A stretch of 30,725 bases of DNA from a virus (IMGVR_UViG_3300043425_000946:1-30725); one strand, 5' to 3'. Shown: positions 7,821 through 29,368, counted from the first letter of the stretch. Notes: generated from the sequence alone by a model not told the origin. Program-made: numbers and translations.

Positions 7821-8900
7821 ATGAGTACTGATGCGCTTGCATTTAAACAAATTGCACAATTTCTAAATGCCATATCACAAAAGTATAATTTTGGTGTAGC
7901 TAAAACTTTCCCTACGGGTCGTCCAGCATCTGACAAAAGTAACACCCGCGAATTTAGAATGCAGTTGATCAACACCTCAAACGATACATCGGACACATAC
8001 AAAAAAGAACTTACAAAACTTATAGCAGCGGATAAGTCTTTTAAAAATATTAAGTTCAATGAGATATCACCAAATAGCTCCAAGTACTCATCTGTCTCTT
8101 TTAGTGCTGACGGCAGAAATTATGATGTTGTCATAAGCAAAGGAGCAAATAAAGGTGAGAATTTTGAGAAGCGTGTGGTATCTGATTTGCAAAGAGTCTT
8201 CTCTAGAAGTGAAGTAAATTTATCATACGAGACATTGATTGAGCAACTTACAAATGCTAACCCAAAATTTGTGGCAAATGAAATAAAGAGTGTTAAGCAA
8301 AGAACAGGTTCAACTAAAAAAGCTGGGGTTCCAATCGAAAAACTAGGTGAAATTATAGGTGATATAGTACTTACCGACTCATCCAACAATAATTGGTTTA
8401 TATCACTTAAGGACATCAATGGTGATACTTTTAGTTCATATGACGGAGCTTCAACACTATTCTCTGCTGATGGAGATTTGGATCGAGCATCACCTGGCGC
8501 ATCATTTTTAAATACTTTTGGTGTAAATCTTAATAAGGTTCAAGAAAGTTTTGATGAACGAAATAATAAGAAAAAAGCCCGTCAAAAATTACCTGTTTAT
8601 AAACAAAATAATCCTATTATAAAAAGCATATTTCGAAGAGCTTGGGGTATGAATTATTTCTACGTTCGTAAAACTTCAACCAGTCAATGGAAAACTTTTT
8701 GGTTAAGCAAAGAACGTCTTGACCAATTAACTTCTAATATTAAAGTAACAGAAGTTAGATACCCAAATAAATCATCAAAACAAATTACTATAGTTTGTAA
8801 TAATGCTTATGCTGACTATATTATAGAAATAAGAAATAGTAAGGGCGGTGAGTATCCAAATGATATTAAATTTAGAGTCAGGAAGGTAGATATTAAATGA
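7821..8900 (+). CDS. Putative nuclease-like protein, possible PD-(D/E)XK fold
   Basis: A 359-aa protein I cannot place firmly. The central part reads GENFEKRVV (113-120), then GDIVL (180-184) and, eleven residues later, FISLKD (193-198). The Glu helix, Asp strand and S-L-K strand order suits the E...D...(E/S)XK catalytic core of restriction-like nucleases. The C-terminal end (DYIIEIRNSKGGEYP) also recalls restriction-like proteins. The gene is visibly more AT-rich than its neighbours and uses A/T-ending codons (AAA, AAT, TTA), suggesting recent acquisition. An AGGG ribosome site precedes the ATG, and the stop overlaps the next start (ATGA). It could instead be a non-enzymatic DNA-binding or virion protein. 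Confidence 0.45.
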   Translation: MSTDALAFKQIAQFLNAISQKYNFGVAKTFPTGRPASDKSNTREFRMQLINTSNDTSDTYKKELTKLIAADKSFKNIKFNEISPNSSKYSSVSFSADGRNYDVVISKGANKGENFEKRVVSDLQRVFSRSEVNLSYETLIEQLTNANPKFVANEIKSVKQRTGSTKKAGVPIEKLGEIIGDIVLTDSSNNNWFISLKDINGDTFSSYDGASTLFSADGDLDRASPGASFLNTFGVNLNKVQESFDERNNKKKARQKLPVYKQNNPIIKSIFRRAWGMNYFYVRKTSTSQWKTFWLSKERLDQLTSNIKVTEVRYPNKSSKQITIVCNNAYADYIIEIRNSKGGEYPNDIKFRVRKVDIK

Positions 8901-10783
8901 AGAGTTACATTACTTTTCTTATAGAATCTCTTGATGTAGACAAGCTAAAGCATCTTGAGCATGCAGAAGATCATATCATCCATGGTGGCGATGAAGGAGT
9001 CAAGCATGCTGCGGATAATCTTGATGATTTGCACAACTTCATGCGTGGTAAAAAGTCAAAGTCTAAGGTAACTGTCAAGTATGACGGCTCACCCAGTGTG
9101 GTTTTTGGGCATCATCCGGAGACCAGTAGATTTTTTGTAGCATCCAAGTCTGCATTTAATGTTGATCCAAAGATCAACTACAGTCACGAAGACATAGATA
9201 GAAATCACGGTCATGCACCAGGACTTGCTTCAAAGCTCAAGTCAGCACTAGATCATCTACCTAAGGTAATGCCACCTGGCGGTGGTGTTTACCAAGGCGA
9301 CTTCCTTTATGATCATGACGATCTGAGGAATGAAGGCGGAAAGTACAAGTTCACACCTAATACGATCACGTATGGTGCTGATAAAGAATCTGCTCAGGGT
9401 AGAAAAATAGCAGCATCAAAGATGGGCTTTGTGGTCCATACCAAGTATGCCGGCAAGAAGCTGGACGATATGAAGGCCGGGTTTGATGTTGACCATGGAG
9501 CATTCAGACAAGATCCACATGTTAATCTAGTCAACCCAGAAGTTCGTCCTGATGTTAATCACAAGCATGATGAAGCATCACAAAAGGAATATGAAGGTCA
9601 TATGGCCAAGGCTCTAGATTCTTACAGGAAAGTTACTCCTGAAGCTCTAGATACAATGAAAGATCATGATTCTCATCTGAAGATGTATATCAATAGCACA
9701 GTTAGGGATGGTACTAAACCAACTACTGGAGGCTATATCAAGCATCTAGAAAAGAGACGTGATACTGAAGCCGCAAAGGTAAAGACCGATGCTGCCAAAA
9801 ACAAGAAGAATGAGCAGTTCAATGGGATGATTGAACGTGTCAAGCAGCACGAACCTGCATTGTCTTCAGGTCTTGAGATGCACGGGCATCTGCAAAGAGC
9901 TAAAGATACTTTGATTAAGGCTCTTGGTAACCCAACGGAATTTGAACATAGCGTCGGTGGTAACGAAGTAAAGCCTGAAGGCTTTGTGTCAATAAGAAAT
10001 GGCCGTCCTACCAAGCTAGTTGATAGAGCCGAGTTCAGTCGCTTTAACTTTGCAAATAACCGTGGTCGTACCGATCCTGCAGCAACGCCACCGCCTGACA
10101 AAGAAGTTCATCACGTATTTGCATTCGGTCGAATGAATCCACCAACCGCAGGTCATGCGGCCCTTGTTAATAAAGTCAAGGAAGTTGCTAAGGCAAATAA
10201 TGCCGATCATTCCATTGTCCTTTCTCACTCACAAGATCCAGAAAAGAATCCATTGTCCGCAGAGCAAAAGCTCAAGCATGCTAAGAGATTCTTTCCAGGT
10301 ACTAATTTGTCTGTAGCAACCAAAGAAATGCCTACATTCATGCATCATCTTAAGGCACTGCATGGTAAAGGTGTAACTCATCTAACTATGGTTGCAGGTT
10401 CTGATAGAGTAGAAGAATACAAGAAACTTATTGATCGGTATAATGGTCCAGGCAAGGACTTCAACTTCAAGTCTGCCAATGTTGTGTCTGCTGGTGAAAG
10501 AGATCCGGATGCAGAAGGTGTGGCTGGTATGTCGGCATCAAAAATGCGAGCACATGTAGCAGCAAATAACCTTCGAGGCTTCAAGCAGGGAATTCCAGAT
10601 CATGTAAGTCCTGCACATGCACAAGAAATGTTTGATGATGTAAAGGCTGGTATGAATGCACCAAAACCTGTAAAGCCTCCGAAGCCTAAGAAGCTTAAGG
10701 AAGAGCTAAATAATACAACCGGAATTATAAGATTTGGCACAGTACTTCGTGTCATTCGAGAATCGTTGGAAAGACAAAGCTAA
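8897..10783 (+). CDS. Fused ligase-like nucleotidyltransferase and HxGH adenylyl/cytidylyltransferase, likely capsid-targeted
   Basis: The 628-aa protein has three parts. (1) The N-terminus MKSYITFLIE resembles the capsid-targeting peptides of T4 internal head proteins; LIE|S at 8-11 fits the T4 gp21 cleavage rule (L/I-X-E). (2) Residues about 50-385 look like a polynucleotide-ligase-type nucleotidyltransferase: motif I KYDGS (K61), VYQGDFLY (131-138), FTPNTITY (152-159), EGFVSI (361-366) and KLVDR (373-377). The spacing between motifs is unusually long. (3) Residues about 405-585 resemble an NMN-adenylyltransferase/cytidylyltransferase fold: FAFGRMNPPTAGH (408-420) as the HxGH-type motif and MSASKMR (545-551) as the ISSTxxR-type motif. 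A basic, Pro-rich tail follows. Similar fusions occur in T4-like phages of marine bacteria. Substrates are unknown. Confidence 0.75.
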   Translation: MKSYITFLIESLDVDKLKHLEHAEDHIIHGGDEGVKHAADNLDDLHNFMRGKKSKSKVTVKYDGSPSVVFGHHPETSRFFVASKSAFNVDPKINYSHEDIDRNHGHAPGLASKLKSALDHLPKVMPPGGGVYQGDFLYDHDDLRNEGGKYKFTPNTITYGADKESAQGRKIAASKMGFVVHTKYAGKKLDDMKAGFDVDHGAFRQDPHVNLVNPEVRPDVNHKHDEASQKEYEGHMAKALDSYRKVTPEALDTMKDHDSHLKMYINSTVRDGTKPTTGGYIKHLEKRRDTEAAKVKTDAAKNKKNEQFNGMIERVKQHEPALSSGLEMHGHLQRAKDTLIKALGNPTEFEHSVGGNEVKPEGFVSIRNGRPTKLVDRAEFSRFNFANNRGRTDPAATPPPDKEVHHVFAFGRMNPPTAGHAALVNKVKEVAKANNADHSIVLSHSQDPEKNPLSAEQKLKHAKRFFPGTNLSVATKEMPTFMHHLKALHGKGVTHLTMVAGSDRVEEYKKLIDRYNGPGKDFNFKSANVVSAGERDPDAEGVAGMSASKMRAHVAANNLRGFKQGIPDHVSPAHAQEMFDDVKAGMNAPKPVKPPKPKKLKEELNNTTGIIRFGTVLRVIRESLERQS

Positions 10784-12133: not shown

Positions 12134-12643
12134 ATGAGCATTGAAGAAGAAAAAGTAGGCCTATGGGCAAACATTCATGCCAAGCGCAAGCGAATTGCAG
12201 CTGGTTCTGGTGAGCGGATGCGCAAGCCAGGTGAAAAGGGTGCTCCTACTGCATCCGCACTTAAGTCTGCACAAGAGTCTTTGAATCCTAATAAGGCTGT
12301 CAATAGAGAAATCGGTACTAATGCACTAACCAGTAACTACAAGAAGTCAACTCCTGGTCAGATTATCAAGCAGGTAGTACGTGAATGTCTCGGCATTGAT
12401 GAAGCTGAATATCAGGGCAGATCAGTGCCACTTGGAAAGCCTATGAAGGGTGACGTAAAGAAGTCAAAGGTCTATGTCAAGAATCCAAGCACCGGAAATG
12501 TAAAGAAAGTAGAGTTTGGCGATCCTAATATGACCATCAAGAAGCATATTCCAGGTCGCCGAAAGAGCTTTAGAGCTAGACACAATTGTGATAATCCAGG
12601 ACCAAAGACTAAGGCAAGGTATTGGAGTTGCAAGGCGTGGTAA
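12134..12643 (+). CDS. Conserved basic phage protein, DUF6321-like N-terminus
   Basis: This 169-aa, Lys/Arg-rich protein has two conserved modules. The N-terminal IHAKRKRIAAGSGERMRKPG resembles the module recognised as DUF6321 in phage proteins. The C-terminal module (GKPMKGDVKKSKVYV...GDPNM...RRKSFRARHNCDNPGPKTKARYWSCKAW) also recurs in phages, ending in a Cys/Trp-rich motif. Strong positive charge suggests contact with DNA or a role in the head. The ribosome site is AGGAG, 9 bp upstream. Confidence 0.7.
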   Translation: MSIEEEKVGLWANIHAKRKRIAAGSGERMRKPGEKGAPTASALKSAQESLNPNKAVNREIGTNALTSNYKKSTPGQIIKQVVRECLGIDEAEYQGRSVPLGKPMKGDVKKSKVYVKNPSTGNVKKVEFGDPNMTIKKHIPGRRKSFRARHNCDNPGPKTKARYWSCKAW

Positions 12644-12807
12644 AGAAGTATAAAGACTTTGTAAAAGAACTTTCTGTTCCTCAAGGAACAACCGGTAAGA
12701 GAAAAGAACTTTCTACGCCAATGGTTGCAATTAGAATGGCTAGCGGTAAAATAGAAAAACACCCGCCTGGCAAGAGCGGAAGCTCTGGTGGTGGTAACGG
12801 AGGCTAA
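12637..12807 (+). CDS. Small virion-associated peptide with capsid-targeting-like N-terminus (56 aa)
   Basis: The GTG start at 12637 overlaps the upstream stop codon; GGAG at 12624-12627 is the ribosome site. The N-terminus MVKKYKDFVKEL resembles the T4 capsid-targeting peptide (MKTYQEFI.E), though V replaces I/L before X-E. The rest is basic and ends in a flexible Gly/Ser tail (GSSGGGNGG). A TTG at 12622 would add five residues but fits the ribosome site less well. It may be a processed internal head peptide. Confidence 0.5.
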   Translation: MVKKYKDFVKELSVPQGTTGKRKELSTPMVAIRMASGKIEKHPPGKSGSSGGGNGG

Positions 12808-12808
12808 T

Positions 12809-13243
12809 ATGGATGATCTAACACAACAGATGAAGGTAGCACTGGCTTCTACCTTTGCTTTTTATCTCAAGGCACATAACTTCCATTGGAATGTTGAAGG
12901 TCCTGGTTTTCCACAGTATCATGCATTGTTTGGTGATATCTATGCAGAAGTATGGGGTGCAGTAGATGCTATTGCTGAGCACATAAGAACACTTGATTCT
13001 TATGCACCAGGAAGCTTGCGTAGATTCTCACAACTTTCTGTAATTCAAGATCAGGTTAATATTCCCGATGCTCGAGGAATGCTCAGTGAGCTACAAACAG
13101 ATAACGTAGAACTCATTACAGAGCTTGATAAGGCATTTAGATTGGCCGAAAAGGCTGACAAGAGTGGAATTGCTAACTTCTTTCAAGACCGAATTGACAT
13201 TCATGAAAAGCATGGATGGATGCTCAGAGCTTCTAGCAAATGA
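12809..13243 (+). CDS. Dps-like ferritin
   Basis: A 144-aa four-helix protein starting after GGAGG. The block HNFHWNVEGPGFPQYHALFG and D53..E57 (DAIAEHI) are the Dps ferroxidase signature. H26, H38, D53 and E57 keep the spacing of Listeria/E. coli Dps. The acid usually four residues after the second His is Gly42, with Asp43 next to it, so one metal ligand may be shifted. Dps dodecamers oxidise iron with peroxide and can bind DNA. No long basic N-terminal tail is present, so DNA binding is doubtful. The gene sits among virion genes with late-type promoters, so it may be packaged or act late. It overlaps the next gene by 4 bp. Confidence 0.85.
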   Translation: MDDLTQQMKVALASTFAFYLKAHNFHWNVEGPGFPQYHALFGDIYAEVWGAVDAIAEHIRTLDSYAPGSLRRFSQLSVIQDQVNIPDARGMLSELQTDNVELITELDKAFRLAEKADKSGIANFFQDRIDIHEKHGWMLRASSK

Positions 13244-14466
13244 CCACCAATTATCGTAACGAAATTAGCAAACGTACAATAAGGTCAGCACCGCAGAGTG
13301 GTAAGCATCACGGGGAAGGTCCGTCTGATGGTGCTCAACGTAATGCTAGAATTGCAGCTGTTGTAGCCGCTAAAAAGGCAGACAGTAAAGCTACAAAAGA
13401 AAAGAACATAGCCGATCGCACAGCGGCTGCCGAGAAGCGCAAGAAGGAAACACTGGCTATGGCTACAGAACAATCATCAGGTACTGAGGCTCGTGTAAAG
13501 ATTAAGAATGTATCTAGACCGGATGATCCAGCGCCGGACTCTAAGGACTCTAAGCTAGTTAAGACTGGTGAAATCAAAACAAAGAAAATTGACGAAGGAA
13601 GATCAATGTCAATCAACAGAAACTTTGGGCTTCCTGAAAGCCTTATTGCTGCTACTCGTGCACTTCTAGAGAAGAGAAATGAGTCTGCAAATAATGTCGG
13701 CAAGGGTAAGACGGTAGTTGATACCGATCCTGAAACCAATGACCGAGACGTCAATGACGACATTACCGAAAAGAAGGGCAAGAAGAAGCTTGATCCAGTC
13801 GGTAAGGAAAATGATGATATTGACAACGATGGTGATGTTGATAAGTCAGACAAGTACTTGCATAACCGCCGTAAGGCTATTGGCAAGGCAATGAAGGAAG
13901 AGACATCTAAGGATTCTGATTCTGCCGAAATTAAGAAGTCTCTGAAGGTATCTGATAAAGAAGCAAAAAGACTTGCAAATTTCCCAAAAAAGCCATACAA
14001 CAAAGACGATATTTTCACTAAGGAAGAAGTAGAATCGGTTGATGAAGCCATTAAGATAGGCTCAAGAGTAAAAATCCATGCTCCCGGTAAGGACTATCAC
14101 GGTATTGTTGGAAACGTTGGTGAAATAGATCACGGTCTGCACAATAAGTCTGAAAAGAGATATACAGTCGATTATAATAACAGATCTAAGTCTGTAACTG
14201 TCTCAAAGCCACAGATCAAGCTTCACAAGGAAGAATTCTCAGACGAAGAACTTGCTCGTCTTGAAGAGATTGCATCCAAGTTTAATATGTCCGAGGCTGC
14301 AACCGAACGCGGTCTTCAAGATCATGAGCCAAGAATTGTCAGTGGTGTAAAGGGCATGAAGAGCAAGCCATTCTCTAAGAAGTTCCCGCATGCAAAGGCA
14401 ATGGATAAGTGGATGGACAGTGATGACTACGGTAATCACGAAGTTCACAGGATCGAAAAGGCCTAA
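13240..14466 (+). CDS. Modular virion-associated protein (408 aa)
   Basis: The ATG overlaps the Dps stop codon. The protein is highly charged and patchwork-like. It has an Ala/Lys coiled region (about 25-75), then FGLPESLIAATRALLEK. A Ca-binding-like loop follows (DDIDNDGDVDKSDKYL, about 190-205) with the D-x-D-x-D spacing of dockerin/EF-hand repeats. After that comes an SH3/KOW-like stretch (IKIGSRVKIHAPGKDYHGIVG...RYTVDY) and a C-terminal block (SKPFSKKFPHAKAMDKWM). Similar modules recur in structural proteins of T4-like marine phages. No catalytic motif is seen. Confidence 0.6.
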   Translation: MTTNYRNEISKRTIRSAPQSGKHHGEGPSDGAQRNARIAAVVAAKKADSKATKEKNIADRTAAAEKRKKETLAMATEQSSGTEARVKIKNVSRPDDPAPDSKDSKLVKTGEIKTKKIDEGRSMSINRNFGLPESLIAATRALLEKRNESANNVGKGKTVVDTDPETNDRDVNDDITEKKGKKKLDPVGKENDDIDNDGDVDKSDKYLHNRRKAIGKAMKEETSKDSDSAEIKKSLKVSDKEAKRLANFPKKPYNKDDIFTKEEVESVDEAIKIGSRVKIHAPGKDYHGIVGNVGEIDHGLHNKSEKRYTVDYNNRSKSVTVSKPQIKLHKEEFSDEELARLEEIASKFNMSEAATERGLQDHEPRIVSGVKGMKSKPFSKKFPHAKAMDKWMDSDDYGNHEVHRIEKA

Positions 14467-14648
14467 TGCTTACATTTCGCGGTTGGTTTACGGAAGCAAA
14501 GAAGAATAAGAAGTTGAAGAGTAATACACCTCCAACTTCTGTTTCTTCACCGATTCGTGGTGCCAATCAAGACCAGAGTGGGTTTGGAGTCAAGCATAAT
14601 ACAGCTGACTACACTATCTCTGATGAAAACAAAATAAAGAATAAATAG
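14466..14648 (+). CDS. Small protein with capsid-targeting-like N-terminus (60 aa)
   Basis: The ATG overlaps the previous stop codon by one base. The N-terminus MLTFRGWFTEAKK resembles the 'F..FL.EA' leader peptides of head proteins in T4-like phages, with E|A as possible prohead-protease site. The remainder is polar and probably disordered (KSNTPPTSVSSPIRG). Its stop codon lies at the end of a late-promoter-like motif. Confidence 0.5.
   Translation: MLTFRGWFTEAKKNKKLKSNTPPTSVSSPIRGANQDQSGFGVKHNTADYTISDENKIKNK
14640..14647 (+). promoter_or_regulatory. Late-type promoter motif before the gene at 14676
   Basis: AATAAATA (NATAAATA consensus), 28 bp before the next start codon, overlapping the end of the upstream gene. 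Confidence 0.5.
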
Positions 14649-22672: not shown

Positions 22673-22699
22673 ATAGAGGGGAAGGAGACTCCCCTCTAT
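22673..22699 (+). promoter_or_regulatory. RNA hairpin displaying the Shine-Dalgarno sequence of the GIY-YIG gene
   Basis: ATAGAGGGGA (22673-22682) pairs perfectly with TCCCCTCTAT (22690-22699), 10 bp, around the loop AGGAGAC. The Shine-Dalgarno AGGAG lies in the loop and the last two paired bases are the A and T of the start codon. No T run follows, so it is not a terminator. The homing endonuclease gene I-TevI of T4 also has its ribosome site controlled by a hairpin. Confidence 0.7.
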
Positions 22700-23096
22700 G
22701 TGGCTACATGATGATACACCGGTTGACGAATCAGCGCTTGAAAGCTATATCGGATTTGTCTATGTAATTGAGAATATGAACAATGGTAGACTATACATTG
22801 GAAAGAAGCTCTTAAAGTTTAAGCGCACCAAGAAAGTCAAAGGCAAGAACAAAAAGATCTTGGTTGACTCAGATTGGAAAAGCTATTGGGGCTCGAACAA
22901 AGTTCTACAGGAAGATGTAAAAGAACTTGGCGAGACCAAATTTACAAGAAAGATTCTTCGTCTCTGTAAGAATAGAGGTGAGATGAACTACTACGAAGCC
23001 AAATATCAATTTGAACTTGGCGTATTGGAATCAGACAGATTCTACAATGATGCTATTATGGTAAGAGTCCATAGATCACACCTACGAAAAGGTTGA
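22698..23096 (+). CDS. GIY-YIG-type endonuclease (possible homing enzyme)
   Basis: The 132-aa protein has FVYVIENMNNGRLYIGKK (20-37), a GIY-YIG core, then a basic segment (KFKRTKKVKGKNKK), DWKSYWGS, and YYEAKYQFE with the likely catalytic Glu100. FYND supplies the Asn late in the domain. These features agree with stand-alone GIY-YIG nucleases of T4-like phages, which may be homing enzymes or DNA-processing nucleases. No separate DNA-binding domain is present. Its start codon is part of the hairpin above. Confidence 0.75.
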   Translation: MWLHDDTPVDESALESYIGFVYVIENMNNGRLYIGKKLLKFKRTKKVKGKNKKILVDSDWKSYWGSNKVLQEDVKELGETKFTRKILRLCKNRGEMNYYEAKYQFELGVLESDRFYNDAIMVRVHRSHLRKG

Positions 23097-25443: not shown

Positions 25444-25875
25444 ATGAATCTTGACAAAAAAAACGTAGGCACCGTAGGTTTTATTTGCGGTGCCTTTGAT
25501 CTTTTGCATCCTGGCCATGTACATCTTCTCTTAGAATGCAGTAAGCTATGTGACTGGCTTATGATCGGTCTTCATACCGATCCAACCATTGATCGCCCAG
25601 ATACCAAAAACAAACCGATACAGACGGCATTTGAGCGCTGGTATCAAATCAATGCTCTCAATCTTAAAGCCGAAATAATTCCATACGACACTGAGCAAGA
25701 CTTAGAACACATGCTTGCTGTTTTGCCAATTGACGTTAGATTTATTGGCTCTGACTATGTTGGTAAATCTATAACAGGTGAGCAAATTTGTGACTCTCGC
25801 CGCATTCATATTCATTACGTAGACAGATCACATAATTGGAGCAGCTCTGAGCTGCGAAAGAGATTTTCAACATGA
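25444..25875 (+). CDS. HxGH nucleotidyltransferase (TagD/HldE-C-like)
   Basis: The 143-aa protein has GFICGAFDLLHPGH (12-25, H22 and H25) and the C-terminal NWSSSELRKR (ISSTxxR-type motif), with FIGSDYVGK between them. This is the fold that couples CTP or ATP to a sugar or polyol phosphate (TagD, RfaE/HldE C-domain). It opens the sugar cassette, so it most likely activates a sugar-1-phosphate. The ribosome site is weak. It overlaps the next gene by 4 bp. Confidence 0.8.
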   Translation: MNLDKKNVGTVGFICGAFDLLHPGHVHLLLECSKLCDWLMIGLHTDPTIDRPDTKNKPIQTAFERWYQINALNLKAEIIPYDTEQDLEHMLAVLPIDVRFIGSDYVGKSITGEQICDSRRIHIHYVDRSHNWSSSELRKRFST

Positions 25876-26849
25876 AGACTGCAATTGTTACTGGATCATA
25901 TGGATATATTGGTTCAGTACTCTGCAAGATACTACGTGATCGTAATTACTTTGTTGTCGGTATTGACAATGACTTACGGACACAAGAAGCTTGGACTAAT
26001 GACGATAGCAGAGTACTAAATTGTAATGACTATCTGTTTGATGATTTTGCAAGCCCAAATAGTTTGCATGTCTTTAAAGAATATAAGGATGCTACAGTAT
26101 TTCATCTTGCAGCTAATAGTCTACTTGGTCCCAGCGCATACGATCCTCTGAGTTATTACAGCAATAACACAGCAAAGACATTGAAGCTTCTTCAAACACT
26201 CAAGCCAACTAATCGTCTAGTCTTTGCTAGTACGGCTGCTGTTTATGGAATCACGGATAAACCGGTTCGCGAACACAGCAAAATTGATCCACCAAATAAC
26301 TATGGCCAGTCTAAGCTTTGGTGTGAAAAGCTGATTGATGCTAGCTATGAAATTCTTAATTTGAAGGCAACATCATTTCGCTTCTTCAATGTAATCGGTG
26401 CTTATGATGATGTTGGACAGCTGCCGGAAACTCCACACATTATCAATCAACTCTGTGACCGTGCAATGAAAAATGAATCATTTACAATCAACGGTACTGA
26501 GTTTAAGACAAAAGACGGCACGTGCATTCGTGACTACGTTCATGTAATAGATATCTGTAATGCTATGATTCATGCAGACGAATACATGCGCGAGTCAAAC
26601 AAGCCAATGCATGAGAAGTTTAACTTGGGTACTAATATTGGCCAATCGGTAAAAGAAATTATTGACATTTTCCAAAAGACATGTTATAATGTAGATGTTA
26701 AGATTGGTGCTGCTCGTGTTGGCGATCCGCCTTTTCTGGTGGCAAATCCAAGTAAGTTTATCAAGCATACCGGCTTCATGTACGAGCATAGCTCTAATCT
26801 TGAAGCTATGATTAATTCAGCATGGGAATATCGTAATGGAAGAAAATGA
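25872..26849 (+). CDS. NAD-dependent nucleotide-sugar epimerase/dehydratase (GalE/HldD superfamily)
   Basis: The 325-aa SDR-type protein has the Rossmann motif TGSYGYIG (7-14), catalytic S120/T121, Y144 and K148 (NYGQSK), and RFFNVIGAY plus RDYVHVIDI in the substrate half. These mark extended SDRs such as UDP-glucose 4-epimerase. In this cassette it probably epimerises the NDP-sugar made by the neighbours. Confidence 0.88.
   Translation: MKTAIVTGSYGYIGSVLCKILRDRNYFVVGIDNDLRTQEAWTNDDSRVLNCNDYLFDDFASPNSLHVFKEYKDATVFHLAANSLLGPSAYDPLSYYSNNTAKTLKLLQTLKPTNRLVFASTAAVYGITDKPVREHSKIDPPNNYGQSKLWCEKLIDASYEILNLKATSFRFFNVIGAYDDVGQLPETPHIINQLCDRAMKNESFTINGTEFKTKDGTCIRDYVHVIDICNAMIHADEYMRESNKPMHEKFNLGTNIGQSVKEIIDIFQKTCYNVDVKIGAARVGDPPFLVANPSKFIKHTGFMYEHSSNLEAMINSAWEYRNGRK
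26662..26690 (+). promoter_or_regulatory. Consensus promoter inside the epimerase gene
   Basis: TTGACA (26662-26667), 17 bp, TATAAT (26685-26690). It lies 146 bp before the glycosyltransferase start. Confidence 0.55.
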
Positions 26850-27822
26850 AATTTCTATTAAGTCTAATGGCGGCACCGAGCAAACCAAGCGCATGGTTGC
26901 TGCCCATCTTCCTGCAGGTCTGACTGATGATTTTCAAATCATTTGTTCTCGTGTAAGAAAGATTGAGGAAGACAAGATTCGTGTATACTGGCTACACGAT
27001 CTTCCACATGACCCAGAAACAAATCACTTGAAGAATGCTTCAAGCCGTGATCGTTTTCATAAGCTTGTATTCTGTGGTAACTGGCAATACAATCAGTATC
27101 TTAATGTTCTCGGTGTACCTTCATCAGATAAGAATGCAGTGATTGATACACCGATTATTCCTATTGAACCAATTGTCAAGCCAACCGATGAAGTTAGACT
27201 TATCTACACTTCTACTCCCCAGCGTGGTCTTGCACTACTAGTTCCTGTTTTTATTGAACTAGCCAAGAAGTATCCTAACATCAAGCTTGACGTATTTTCT
27301 AGTTTTTCAATCTATGGATGGGGCCAGGCCGATGATCAGTTCAAAGAACTCTTTGATGCATGCAGAAGTCACCCGCAGATCAATTATCACGGTTCACAAC
27401 CTAATGAAGTTGTTCGTGAGCATTTGCAGCGGGCGCACATCTTTGCATACCCATCAATCTGGCAAGAATGTAACTCCAGAGCGCTAATTGAGGCTATGAG
27501 TGCAGAATGTCTTTGCATTCATCCAAATCTTGCCGGGCTTTCTGATACTTCTGGTAGCATTACTTCAATGTATCAGTTCATTGAAGATCCAAGCATGCAT
27601 GCTAATCACTTCTATGGATTGCTTGATCAGTCTATCAACATTGTACATCAAGAACATGCACGCAACTACTTGCGTTTTGTTAAAAATTATGCTGATATTC
27701 GATTCAATATCAACAACGTTGCACAGCAATGGACTAGTTTGTTGCAGAACCTAAAAATGCAATATCCTACTCTAGAGTCCAGGGCGCTTCCAAAGCCGGC
27801 TTGGAATTACAAGACGTCATGA
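26836..27822 (+). CDS. GT-B glycosyltransferase
   Basis: The 328-aa protein begins with SNGGTEQTKRM, the glycine-rich start of GT4-type enzymes. It has LIYTSTPQRGL, YHGSQPNEVVREHLQRAHIFAYPSIWQE-like blocks and the E-x7-E type region (WQECNSRALIEAM). It should transfer an activated sugar, probably the product of this cassette; the acceptor (host LPS, DNA or virion protein) is unknown. The start overlaps the epimerase by 14 bp. At 328 aa it is short for a complete two-domain GT-B enzyme, the N-terminal domain being the smaller half. Confidence 0.82.
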   Translation: MEENEISIKSNGGTEQTKRMVAAHLPAGLTDDFQIICSRVRKIEEDKIRVYWLHDLPHDPETNHLKNASSRDRFHKLVFCGNWQYNQYLNVLGVPSSDKNAVIDTPIIPIEPIVKPTDEVRLIYTSTPQRGLALLVPVFIELAKKYPNIKLDVFSSFSIYGWGQADDQFKELFDACRSHPQINYHGSQPNEVVREHLQRAHIFAYPSIWQECNSRALIEAMSAECLCIHPNLAGLSDTSGSITSMYQFIEDPSMHANHFYGLLDQSINIVHQEHARNYLRFVKNYADIRFNINNVAQQWTSLLQNLKMQYPTLESRALPKPAWNYKTS

Positions 27823-28796
27823 TCTTTGCTACTAAAACCCCACTACGCATTTCATTTTTTGGTGGTGGTAGTGATATACCGCAATTCTATAACAATAGAC
27901 CAGGCTTGGTAGTCTCTACCACTATTAATCATTATATCTACGTTGCAGTTAACAAATGTGAACCACAACATGTTAGAGTAGTTTACTCTGAACTTGAGCA
28001 AGCTGATAATGTAGAAAATATCAAGCATACTCGAGCTAAGGCTATCCTCAAAAAGTTCAATATTGAAACTGGCATTGAAATCGTTAGCTTTTCTGATATC
28101 ACTACAAAGGGCTCTGGGCTAGGTTCTAGTTCATCTTATACAGTCGGTCTTATCAAAGCGCTATATAATATGCGTATGATTAATCATACACGTAGTAACT
28201 TAGCTGAATTAGCTTGTGACATAGAAATCAAAGACTTGGGTGAACCAATCGGCAAGCAAGATCAATATGCTGCAGCCTTTGGTGGGTTCAATGCTATTAG
28301 ATTTAACTCTGAAGGTGTAGAAGTAACCAGTCCTCAAATTTGTAATTCTATATTGTTTGGACTTAATAATAATCTTATGTGTTTTAGCACAGGCACAACT
28401 CGCGAAGCTTCAAGCGTTCTTAGTCAGCAAGTTACTAATTTAGTTACAGATACCAAAGCTCTTGATACTACTTCACGACTTGTAGCTATGGCAGAAGATT
28501 CTTTGCGGTATCTCAAACGCGGCAAGATAAATGATTTTGGTGCTCTGCTTGATGAAGCTTGGATAGAAAAGAAGAAGCTTGCTGCTGGTATAAGCAATCC
28601 GCATATTGACAGCATGTACGAAACAGCTTGTAATGCAGGTGCACTTGGTGGTAAGATACTTGGAGCTGGAGGCGGTGGTTATATGCTTCTTTATGTTCCA
28701 CATAGAAATCATAATAGTGTTATGCGTGCTATGCATGAATACAAGCAGTTTCACTTTGCATTTACTGATCAAGGGAGCGTTTCGACGCAAATGTGA
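27819..28796 (+). CDS. GHMP kinase, D-glycero-D-manno-heptose-phosphate kinase-like (HddA-like)
   Basis: The ATG at 27819 overlaps the upstream stop codon (ATGA). The 325-aa protein starts TPLRISFFGGGSDIPQFY, a hallmark of HddA-like sugar kinases. It carries the ATP-binding GSGLGSSSS (98-106) and the C-terminal GAGGGGYML. HddA phosphorylates heptose 7-phosphate at C1. Other GHMP sugar kinases share this start, so the exact sugar is inferred from the GmhA-like neighbour. Confidence 0.85.
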   Translation: MIFATKTPLRISFFGGGSDIPQFYNNRPGLVVSTTINHYIYVAVNKCEPQHVRVVYSELEQADNVENIKHTRAKAILKKFNIETGIEIVSFSDITTKGSGLGSSSSYTVGLIKALYNMRMINHTRSNLAELACDIEIKDLGEPIGKQDQYAAAFGGFNAIRFNSEGVEVTSPQICNSILFGLNNNLMCFSTGTTREASSVLSQQVTNLVTDTKALDTTSRLVAMAEDSLRYLKRGKINDFGALLDEAWIEKKKLAAGISNPHIDSMYETACNAGALGGKILGAGGGGYMLLYVPHRNHNSVMRAMHEYKQFHFAFTDQGSVSTQM

Positions 28797-29368
28797 TGAA
28801 AAATTTTACTGAGTATTTTTCTGAACTAAATTATGCCATTAGCAGACTAGATCATGCTAGCATGGAAGCTGCATTCAATGCCATTGACAATGCACATTTA
28901 CTGTTTATTATGGGCAACGGTGGATCCGCTGCTAGTGCCGATCACTGGGTCTGTGATTTTATGAAAGGCATTAATGAGGATACCGAGTTGTCTGCAAGAG
29001 CTATCAGTCTGACTAGTAATGGACCTCTTATTACGGCTATAGCCAATGATGTAGGTTATGATCACATATTTGAGAGACAGTTGATGTATCATCACTGTAC
29101 TTTTGGTGATGTGGTCTTAGCTATTTCTGCCAGCGGCAATTCCAAAAACATCTTAAATGGACTTTACAGGGCTAAAAAGCTTGGAGCAACAACCATAGCT
29201 TTTACAGGATTTACTGGTGGTGAAGCAGCTGCAATGGCCGACATCAATGTACACGTTCCTGCTCACAACTACGGTATTGTGGAAGACATACATATGATGA
29301 TTCTTCATGCTATCTCTCAGCGTATTAGGGCTGCTGGGGCTACTGATCCGAAGAAGATCAGACTATAA
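28796..29368 (+). CDS. SIS-domain sugar isomerase (GmhA-like)
   Basis: The ATG overlaps the upstream TGA (TGATG). The 190-aa protein contains GNGGSAASADHW (40-51), the phosphosugar-binding ISASGNSKN and YGIVEDIHMMILHAI, close to phosphoheptose isomerase GmhA and its relatives. GmhA converts sedoheptulose 7-phosphate to D-glycero-D-manno-heptose 7-phosphate, the substrate of HddA. It ends the cassette. Confidence 0.85.
   Translation: MKNFTEYFSELNYAISRLDHASMEAAFNAIDNAHLLFIMGNGGSAASADHWVCDFMKGINEDTELSARAISLTSNGPLITAIANDVGYDHIFERQLMYHHCTFGDVVLAISASGNSKNILNGLYRAKKLGATTIAFTGFTGGEAAAMADINVHVPAHNYGIVEDIHMMILHAISQRIRAAGATDPKKIRL

Follow-up and report, generated by a model that had tools for sequence, protein, structure and literature searches.

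A predicted capsid-targeted fusion of a ligase-like DUF6267 domain and an HxGH adenylyltransferase domain in a T4-like freshwater phage

A fused gene behind a block of replication genes

The window analysed here, a 30.7-kb virus record of 30,725 nucleotides, is a fragment from a T4-like freshwater phage that ends short of the head genes. Within the window, a block of replication genes precedes a single gene on the plus strand (8897-10783, ATG start), which encodes a protein of 628 amino acids and is supported by ORF calling, Pfam and PHROGs. The fusion gene starts within the end of its predecessor (7821-8900), with overlapping start and stop codons, and a Shine-Dalgarno-like site (AGGAAGG, 8880-8886, plus strand) can be seen in the sequence before its start codon. 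From its N- to its C-terminus, the protein is composed of a putative capsid-targeting sequence (CTS), a ligase-like DUF6267 domain and an HxGH adenylyltransferase domain, followed by a variable Pro/Lys-rich tail (residues 591-628, 10667-10780, plus strand), which is unlike among relatives.

Using Pfam, residues 18-388 were assigned to PF19782 (DUF6267) with an E value of 4e-97, a full-length profile match that passes the curated threshold (326 bits versus a cut-off of 27), and a weak CTP_transf_like match was obtained for residues 409-467. In PHROGs, the first part corresponds to phrog_455 and the second to the 'cytidyltransferase' families phrog_3041 and phrog_395. The motifs named in the original prediction were all recovered at their places (KYDGS at residues 61-65, EGFV at 361-364, KLVDR at 373-377, TAGH at 417-420 and SASKMR at 546-551), and they go beyond chance, since their key residues are invariant or nearly so in the DUF6267 and HxGH alignments.

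Relatives of the fusion protein were found by tblastn in 550 phage records, mostly of cyanophages, in which the two parts are usually encoded by neighbouring genes. The fused form is not unique to the window; it recurs in freshwater relatives and in S-PM2. Accordingly, a sequencing error was rejected as the origin of the fusion, given its presence in many independent contigs besides S-PM2. In the S-PM2 record (NC_006820; L023:1986-3765), two genes of 192 and 390 amino acids are annotated, and a 591-aa protein (A0A0M6VVW4) covers both; some cyanophage HxGH genes carry the annotation ribonucleotide reductase.

Among the other genes of the window, a Dps/ferritin-like gene (12788-13243; PF00210, E 3e-23) lies in the same gene block as the fusion gene, a SegE-type GIY-YIG homing endonuclease is encoded at 22698-23096, and a sugar cluster at 25444-29368 comprises a second HxGH nucleotidyltransferase, an epimerase, a glycosyltransferase, a GHMP kinase and a SIS isomerase, perhaps for nucleotide-heptose synthesis. 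In one related contig, part of a UvsX-like gene (L006:1379-1916) reads like the C-terminus of an intein (VYDITVAGNHEYVFKNGVRSHN, then TGIYY).

Two nucleotidyltransferase-type domains

The DUF6267 domain (residues 18-388, 8948-10060, plus strand) yielded a confident AF2 model based on 46 sequences (pLDDT 91.4, pTM 0.88). Its invariant or nearly invariant residues, K61-x-D63-G64, K84, Q133-x-D135, E361-G362 and K373, are taken by us, on the basis of superfamily knowledge, to represent the ligase motifs I, III, IIIa, IV and V. In this assignment, motif I (K61-Y-D-G, 9077-9088; K61 and D63 each in 45/45 sequences) provides the predicted adenylylated lysine, FFVASK (residues 79-84, 9131-9148; F79, F80 and K84 invariant) stands in the place of motif III, and Q133-G-D135 (9293-9301; Q133 and D135 in 46/46) in that of motif IIIa, followed by motif IV (E361-G-F-V, 9977-9988; E361 and G362 in 46/46) and motif V (K373-L-V-D-R377, 10013-10027; K373 in 46/46, R377 in 45/46), all on the plus strand. 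Between the parts carrying motifs IIIa and IV, the secondary structure of the model contains a helical insertion (residues 226-343, 9572-9925, plus strand), which is much shorter in the aligned sequences of Syn33 and S-SSM7. In a second alignment of 19 sequences with about 30% identity, drawn from cyanophages and from Pelagibacter, Methylophilales, Stenotrophomonas and Vibrio phages, the ligase-motif residues were again invariant or nearly so. Moreover, the ordered signature KxDG..EGxV..K singled out the five DUF6267 genes, and no others, among the 1110 genes of five phages. DUF6267 thereby displays the ordered, invariant motifs I (KxDG), IIIa, IV (EG) and V (K), with the lysines and acids by which covalent nucleotidyltransferases such as T4 Rnl2 are recognised.

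The resemblance at the level of the fold is less pronounced. When the model was compared with solved structures, the top match was an RNA ligase entry (1s68, the adenylyltransferase domain of T4 Rnl2) at a non-significant E value of 0.18, below which other ligases were scattered amid unrelated folds. In a viral structure library, the first named match outside the family was the RNA ligase of Agrobacterium phage Atu_ph07 (E 7e-4). Profile comparisons of both DUF6267 alignments with T4 Rnl2 by hhalign, in local and global mode, revealed no similarity (probability 0.1-0.3 per cent, E 0.2-0.6), which speaks against membership in the Rnl2 family of RNA ligases. Sequence searches of solved structures with the protein and both alignments returned nothing usable, the amyloid-like matches obtained lying mostly over the helical insertion; likewise, the Pfam ligase families produced one stray RNA_lig_T4_1 match (E 0.015) amid many chance matches across 55 DUF6267 members, and the Pfam family RNA_ligase was found neither in the five long relatives nor in the window. 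Behind motif V, the predicted secondary structure consists of one helix, a linker and the HxGH domain, with no OB-fold part, which speaks against a DNA ligase equipped with an OB domain. The long helical insertion, by which DUF6267 also differs from Rnl2 and other ligases, may disturb the fold match.

The ligase-type fold that had been predicted for this region is supported by its invariant motifs, with RNA ligases as the top solved and the first named non-family viral match, but not by a significant match to a solved ligase or by the Rnl2 profile comparison. Given the weak fold match and the failed profile comparison, we therefore describe DUF6267 as a domain that works like a ligase-type nucleotidyltransferase rather than as an RNA ligase. 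Judged by its motifs, it probably belongs to the covalent-nucleotidyltransferase class and would share its chemistry; the label 'ligase-like' is probable rather than established.

The C-terminal domain (about residues 405-590, 10109-10666, plus strand; PF01467, AF2, Foldseek) was modelled with a pLDDT of 91.6. It contains the first HxGH-superfamily signature in the form GRMNPPTAGH (residues 411-420, 10127-10156; G419 in 32/34 and H420 in 33/34 aligned sequences), a conserved GxD motif (G501-S-D503, 10397-10405; G and D in 33/34) and the second signature SxS/TxxR as SASKMR (residues 546-551, 10532-10549; R551 in 31/31), again on the plus strand. Foldseek retrieved 57 solved chains at E <= 0.001, the best being the nicotinate-mononucleotide adenylyltransferase NadD of Enterococcus faecium (1.7e-6), with which the domain shares its fold and both motif types at less than 20% identity. 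Combining the superfamily's fold with both of its motifs, the domain almost certainly belongs to the HxGH adenylyltransferases, in line with the HxGH-type domain originally predicted. The fold does not set the substrate, since the matches further include FAD synthetase, PPAT and TmcAL; judging from the modelled structure, 'adenylyltransferase' would fit better than the annotated 'cytidyltransferase'.

A capsid-targeting tag and probable packaging into the head

In phage T4, the first ten residues of the internal protein IPIII are enough for capsid targeting, with residues 4 and 7 being important for targeting itself and processing requiring attention to positions 8 and 10; the cleavage site of gp21 lies behind L/I-x-E (PMC9026906). 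We accordingly defined the CTS of T4-type internal head proteins as ten N-terminal residues with hydrophobic positions 4 and 7, L/I at position 8 and E at position 10. The N-terminus of the 628-aa protein, MKSYITFLIE|S (propeptide, residues 1-10, 8897-8926, plus strand), has exactly this form, as had been claimed; in the AF2 model, residues 5-13 are of low confidence.

The conservation of this segment is confined to the key positions. Six other IMG/VR relatives begin with MLTFTNFLTE|S, MLKFSDFLIE|S, MFTFSSFLKE|S, MIGFMKFLNE|S, MISLSQFLLE|S and MITFKTFLVE|S, followed in each by SLDVDKLKHLEHAED or a near-identical form. Compared to the window protein, 3-4 of nine tag residues and 26-29 of the 30 residues behind the tag are identical, positions 4, 7, 8 and 10 being kept while the remaining tag residues vary. 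Between the window and a relative with 94% identity (L003), the upstream genes are unmatched and similarity picks up directly behind the tag; the tag can therefore change together with the upstream gene.

The strict tag is present in 61/88 DUF6267 genes (77/88 with a looser pattern), as opposed to 0/272 non-family genes from S-SCSM1 and part of S-CREM2; this enrichment corresponds to a Fisher P of 4e-48, a value that overstates the case because related sequences were counted as independent. None of the 38 other genes of the window carries it. The strict tag is found on 14 of the 1110 genes in five long relatives, namely on 4/5 DUF6267 genes versus 10/1105 others, and in the closest of these relatives (G001, 164 kb) no gene out of 205 carries it except the fused one. 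A chance N-terminal motif was rejected in view of the enrichment (61/88 versus 0/272) and of key positions that are kept while others vary.

The position of the tag differs between fused and split forms. The fusion protein matches PF19782 (DUF6267, T4-GC 71 of cyanophages) over the full length of the family (E 4e-97) with identical invariant residues, but in the marine cyanophages examined the DUF6267 gene is separate and mostly untagged, beginning directly with MAKNTHLEHLED or a similar sequence; in these phages the tag is often found on the HxGH gene. Of the separate HxGH genes overall, 14/57 carry the strict form. Several freshwater relatives with split genes (e.g. L049-L052) have tags on both. 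Owing to the fusion, both enzymes stand behind one tag in the window, in which the HxGH domain has none of its own. Two reading frames of the window are of note in this regard: a 60-aa ORF (14466-14648) begins with the tag-like MLTFRGWFTEA, which has F at position 8, and the gene at 12134-12643 seems related to small proteins that are tagged elsewhere (MISFKEYLEEAKRGLWDNIHAK, MLSFLQFISEAEYQGR), is untagged here and seems to join both kinds.

A gp21-family prohead protease is encoded in 5/5 long relatives; the window fragment does not reach the head genes. Furthermore, orthologues of the C-terminal domain have been detected in virions by mass spectrometry, namely T4-GC190 in S-SM1 (PMC3037559), ORF154 in S-CREM2 (PMC10665884) and ORF91 in S-SCSM1 (PMC9602691). 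These are encoded by separate HxGH genes of the cyanophage cytidylyltransferase/NMNAT-like group T4-GC 190 (phrog_3041, phrog_395), and their N-termini, MKKFSAFLNEAE, MKNFSSFLTEAD and MKSFLQFLKEAA, are all tags. Taken together, the tag statistics, the protease of the relatives and the published virion proteomes provide good support for the claim of head packaging, and we consider it very probable that the 628-aa fusion is itself packaged. The first ten residues would act like the CTS of T4 IPIII and draw the protein into the prohead core, where a gp21-type protease is predicted to remove the tag after Glu10, before Ser11.

Tagged neighbours, presumed delivery and possible role

After removal of the tag, the mature protein would combine a lysine-adenylating, covalent ligase-type nucleotidyltransferase (DUF6267, catalytic K61) with an HxGH adenylyltransferase of NadD-like fold. 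Presumably ejected with the DNA, it would act in the first minutes of infection. Because two enzymes are joined behind a head-loading tag, the bacterium probably receives a finished enzyme from the phage along with its DNA. The original idea of a dual enzyme delivered to the host is in this way partly supported: well for the tag, packaging and the HxGH fold, less firmly for the ligase-type domain, while it stays conjectural for cleavage after Glu10, injection and role.

The tagged genes surrounding DUF6267 in relatives offer an indication of the role. Besides the family itself, 64 tagged ORFs were found near DUF6267 and fall into nine clusters, the largest of which is a HAD phosphatase with 15 members. 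All three tagged HAD phosphatases tested, two of them from parts of long genomes away from DUF6267, match phrog_415 'polynucleotide kinase' (PNK; E 6e-10 to 2e-7); tagged representatives lie at L083:5150-5782, L170:15771-16355, L190:17040-17645 and, assigned by clustering only, L007:2286-2582. In two contigs (L083 and L084), the PNK-type HAD gene sits between the DUF6267 and the HxGH gene; a gene of this type accompanies some relatives only and is absent from the window. Another tagged protein, encoded away from DUF6267 in its genome (G002, L169:5568-6293), shows a weak NTP_transf_2 match (E 0.006), and its N-terminal part resembles, as judged by eye, ORF156 of S-CREM2, a virion protein (PMC10665884). 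Phage RNA ligases have been described as acting together with enzymes such as PNK, HAD phosphatases and nucleotidyltransferases of the Pol-beta type (PMC7824862). The tagged PNK-type and nucleotidyltransferase-like neighbours thus favour nucleic-acid end repair over NAD metabolism, by association only.

Based on these findings, we assign a probability of about 0.6 to the reading that the gene encodes an injected internal-head fused enzyme of a T4-like phage, most likely for nucleic-acid end repair. The most likely job of the protein would be to join or adenylylate damaged nucleic-acid ends before phage genes are expressed, with RNA of either host or phage, or incoming DNA that carries nicks, as candidate substrates; end repair as such is proposed tentatively, at somewhat less than even odds.

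In the main competing explanation, the HxGH domain would enter the host as an NMN/NaMN adenylyltransferase, restoring NAD after the action of NADase defences or redirecting host NAD, with the ligase-like domain using or sensing NAD. NadD is indeed the nearest fold, the authors of the S-SCSM1 study name their orthologue NMNAT and propose an NAD role (PMC9602691), and phage pathways for NAD+ synthesis and reconstitution are known. However, the matches to FAD synthetase, PPAT and TmcAL leave the substrate unset, the tagged neighbours are phosphatase- and nucleotidyltransferase-like, every phage with NadM is reported to have NadV as well (PMC9503650), and the window shows no evident NAD-salvage gene, so that we regard an NAD function as unlikely. 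Slightly less probable still is an enzyme that places AMP on a host protein or nucleic acid in order to take over the cell, comparable to T4 Alt with ADP-ribose: Alt is a head-packaged, injected nucleotide-transferring enzyme and both domains are of nucleotidyl-transferring classes, yet neither sequence nor context points to a protein substrate. A function inside the head, either in sealing nicks in packaged DNA, a possible ligase substrate, or as a head-maturation factor, would be compatible with a head location that is expected wherever the protein acts; we consider it quite improbable, as a packed head would hardly offer the nucleotide cofactors required and the tagged neighbours change from phage to phage, more in the manner of optional cargo than of core head genes. 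Finally, HxGH enzymes often activate sugars or alcohols, and DUF6267 and HxGH proteins can also be ordinary cytoplasmic enzymes, because many marine DUF6267 and many split HxGH genes are without a tag, but that both domains of the fusion serve nucleotide or sugar metabolism behind a tag-like N-terminus with no targeting function, as the preceding replication genes might suggest, is the least probable option in light of a tag that is enriched, preserved under divergence and present on orthologues in three virion proteomes.

Returning to end repair by an injected enzyme, a wider and rather doubtful extension would be that T4-like phages, both freshwater and marine, pack their heads with a tagged kit for processing nucleic-acid ends (ligase-like DUF6267, HxGH adenylyltransferase, PNK-type HAD phosphatase and Pol-beta-type nucleotidyltransferase) and inject it to repair RNA or DNA cut by host defences prior to gene expression, the tag serving as a modular joint for cargo exchange. 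With T4 IPI, IPII, IPIII and Alt, the window protein shares the ten-residue N-terminal tag with key positions 4, 7, 8 and 10, a gp21-type protease (here in relatives) and a cargo that differs between phages; unlike the small T4 IPs and the ADP-ribosyltransferase Alt, however, the cargo here joins two nucleotidyltransferase-type domains in a fusion of 628 aa. The polyvalent proteins encoded by phages and plasmids likewise unite several enzyme domains in a single chain that is presumably injected during infection, but are described as very diverse, with metallopeptidase and ArdC-type hub domains (PMC5512222), in contrast to the T4-type tag and two nucleotidyltransferase-type domains observed here.

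The DUF6267 and HxGH families by name and the virion presence of the HxGH protein are already known. In the literature searched, neither the tag and its exchange nor the ligase motifs or the fused form appear to have been described, and no paper mentions DUF6267 by name or links capsid targeting to cyanophage cargo. Phage repair enzymes, those of T4 among them, are produced after infection; a virion-carried enzyme for repair or nucleotidyl transfer would start its action while the work of host nucleases or NADases is still incomplete. The tag furthermore offers an easy sequence criterion by which candidates for injected proteins can be sought in the abundant phages of aquatic habitats. For DUF6267, which is present in hundreds of phage records and to which Pfam gives no function, a chemistry is suggested by the invariant motifs.
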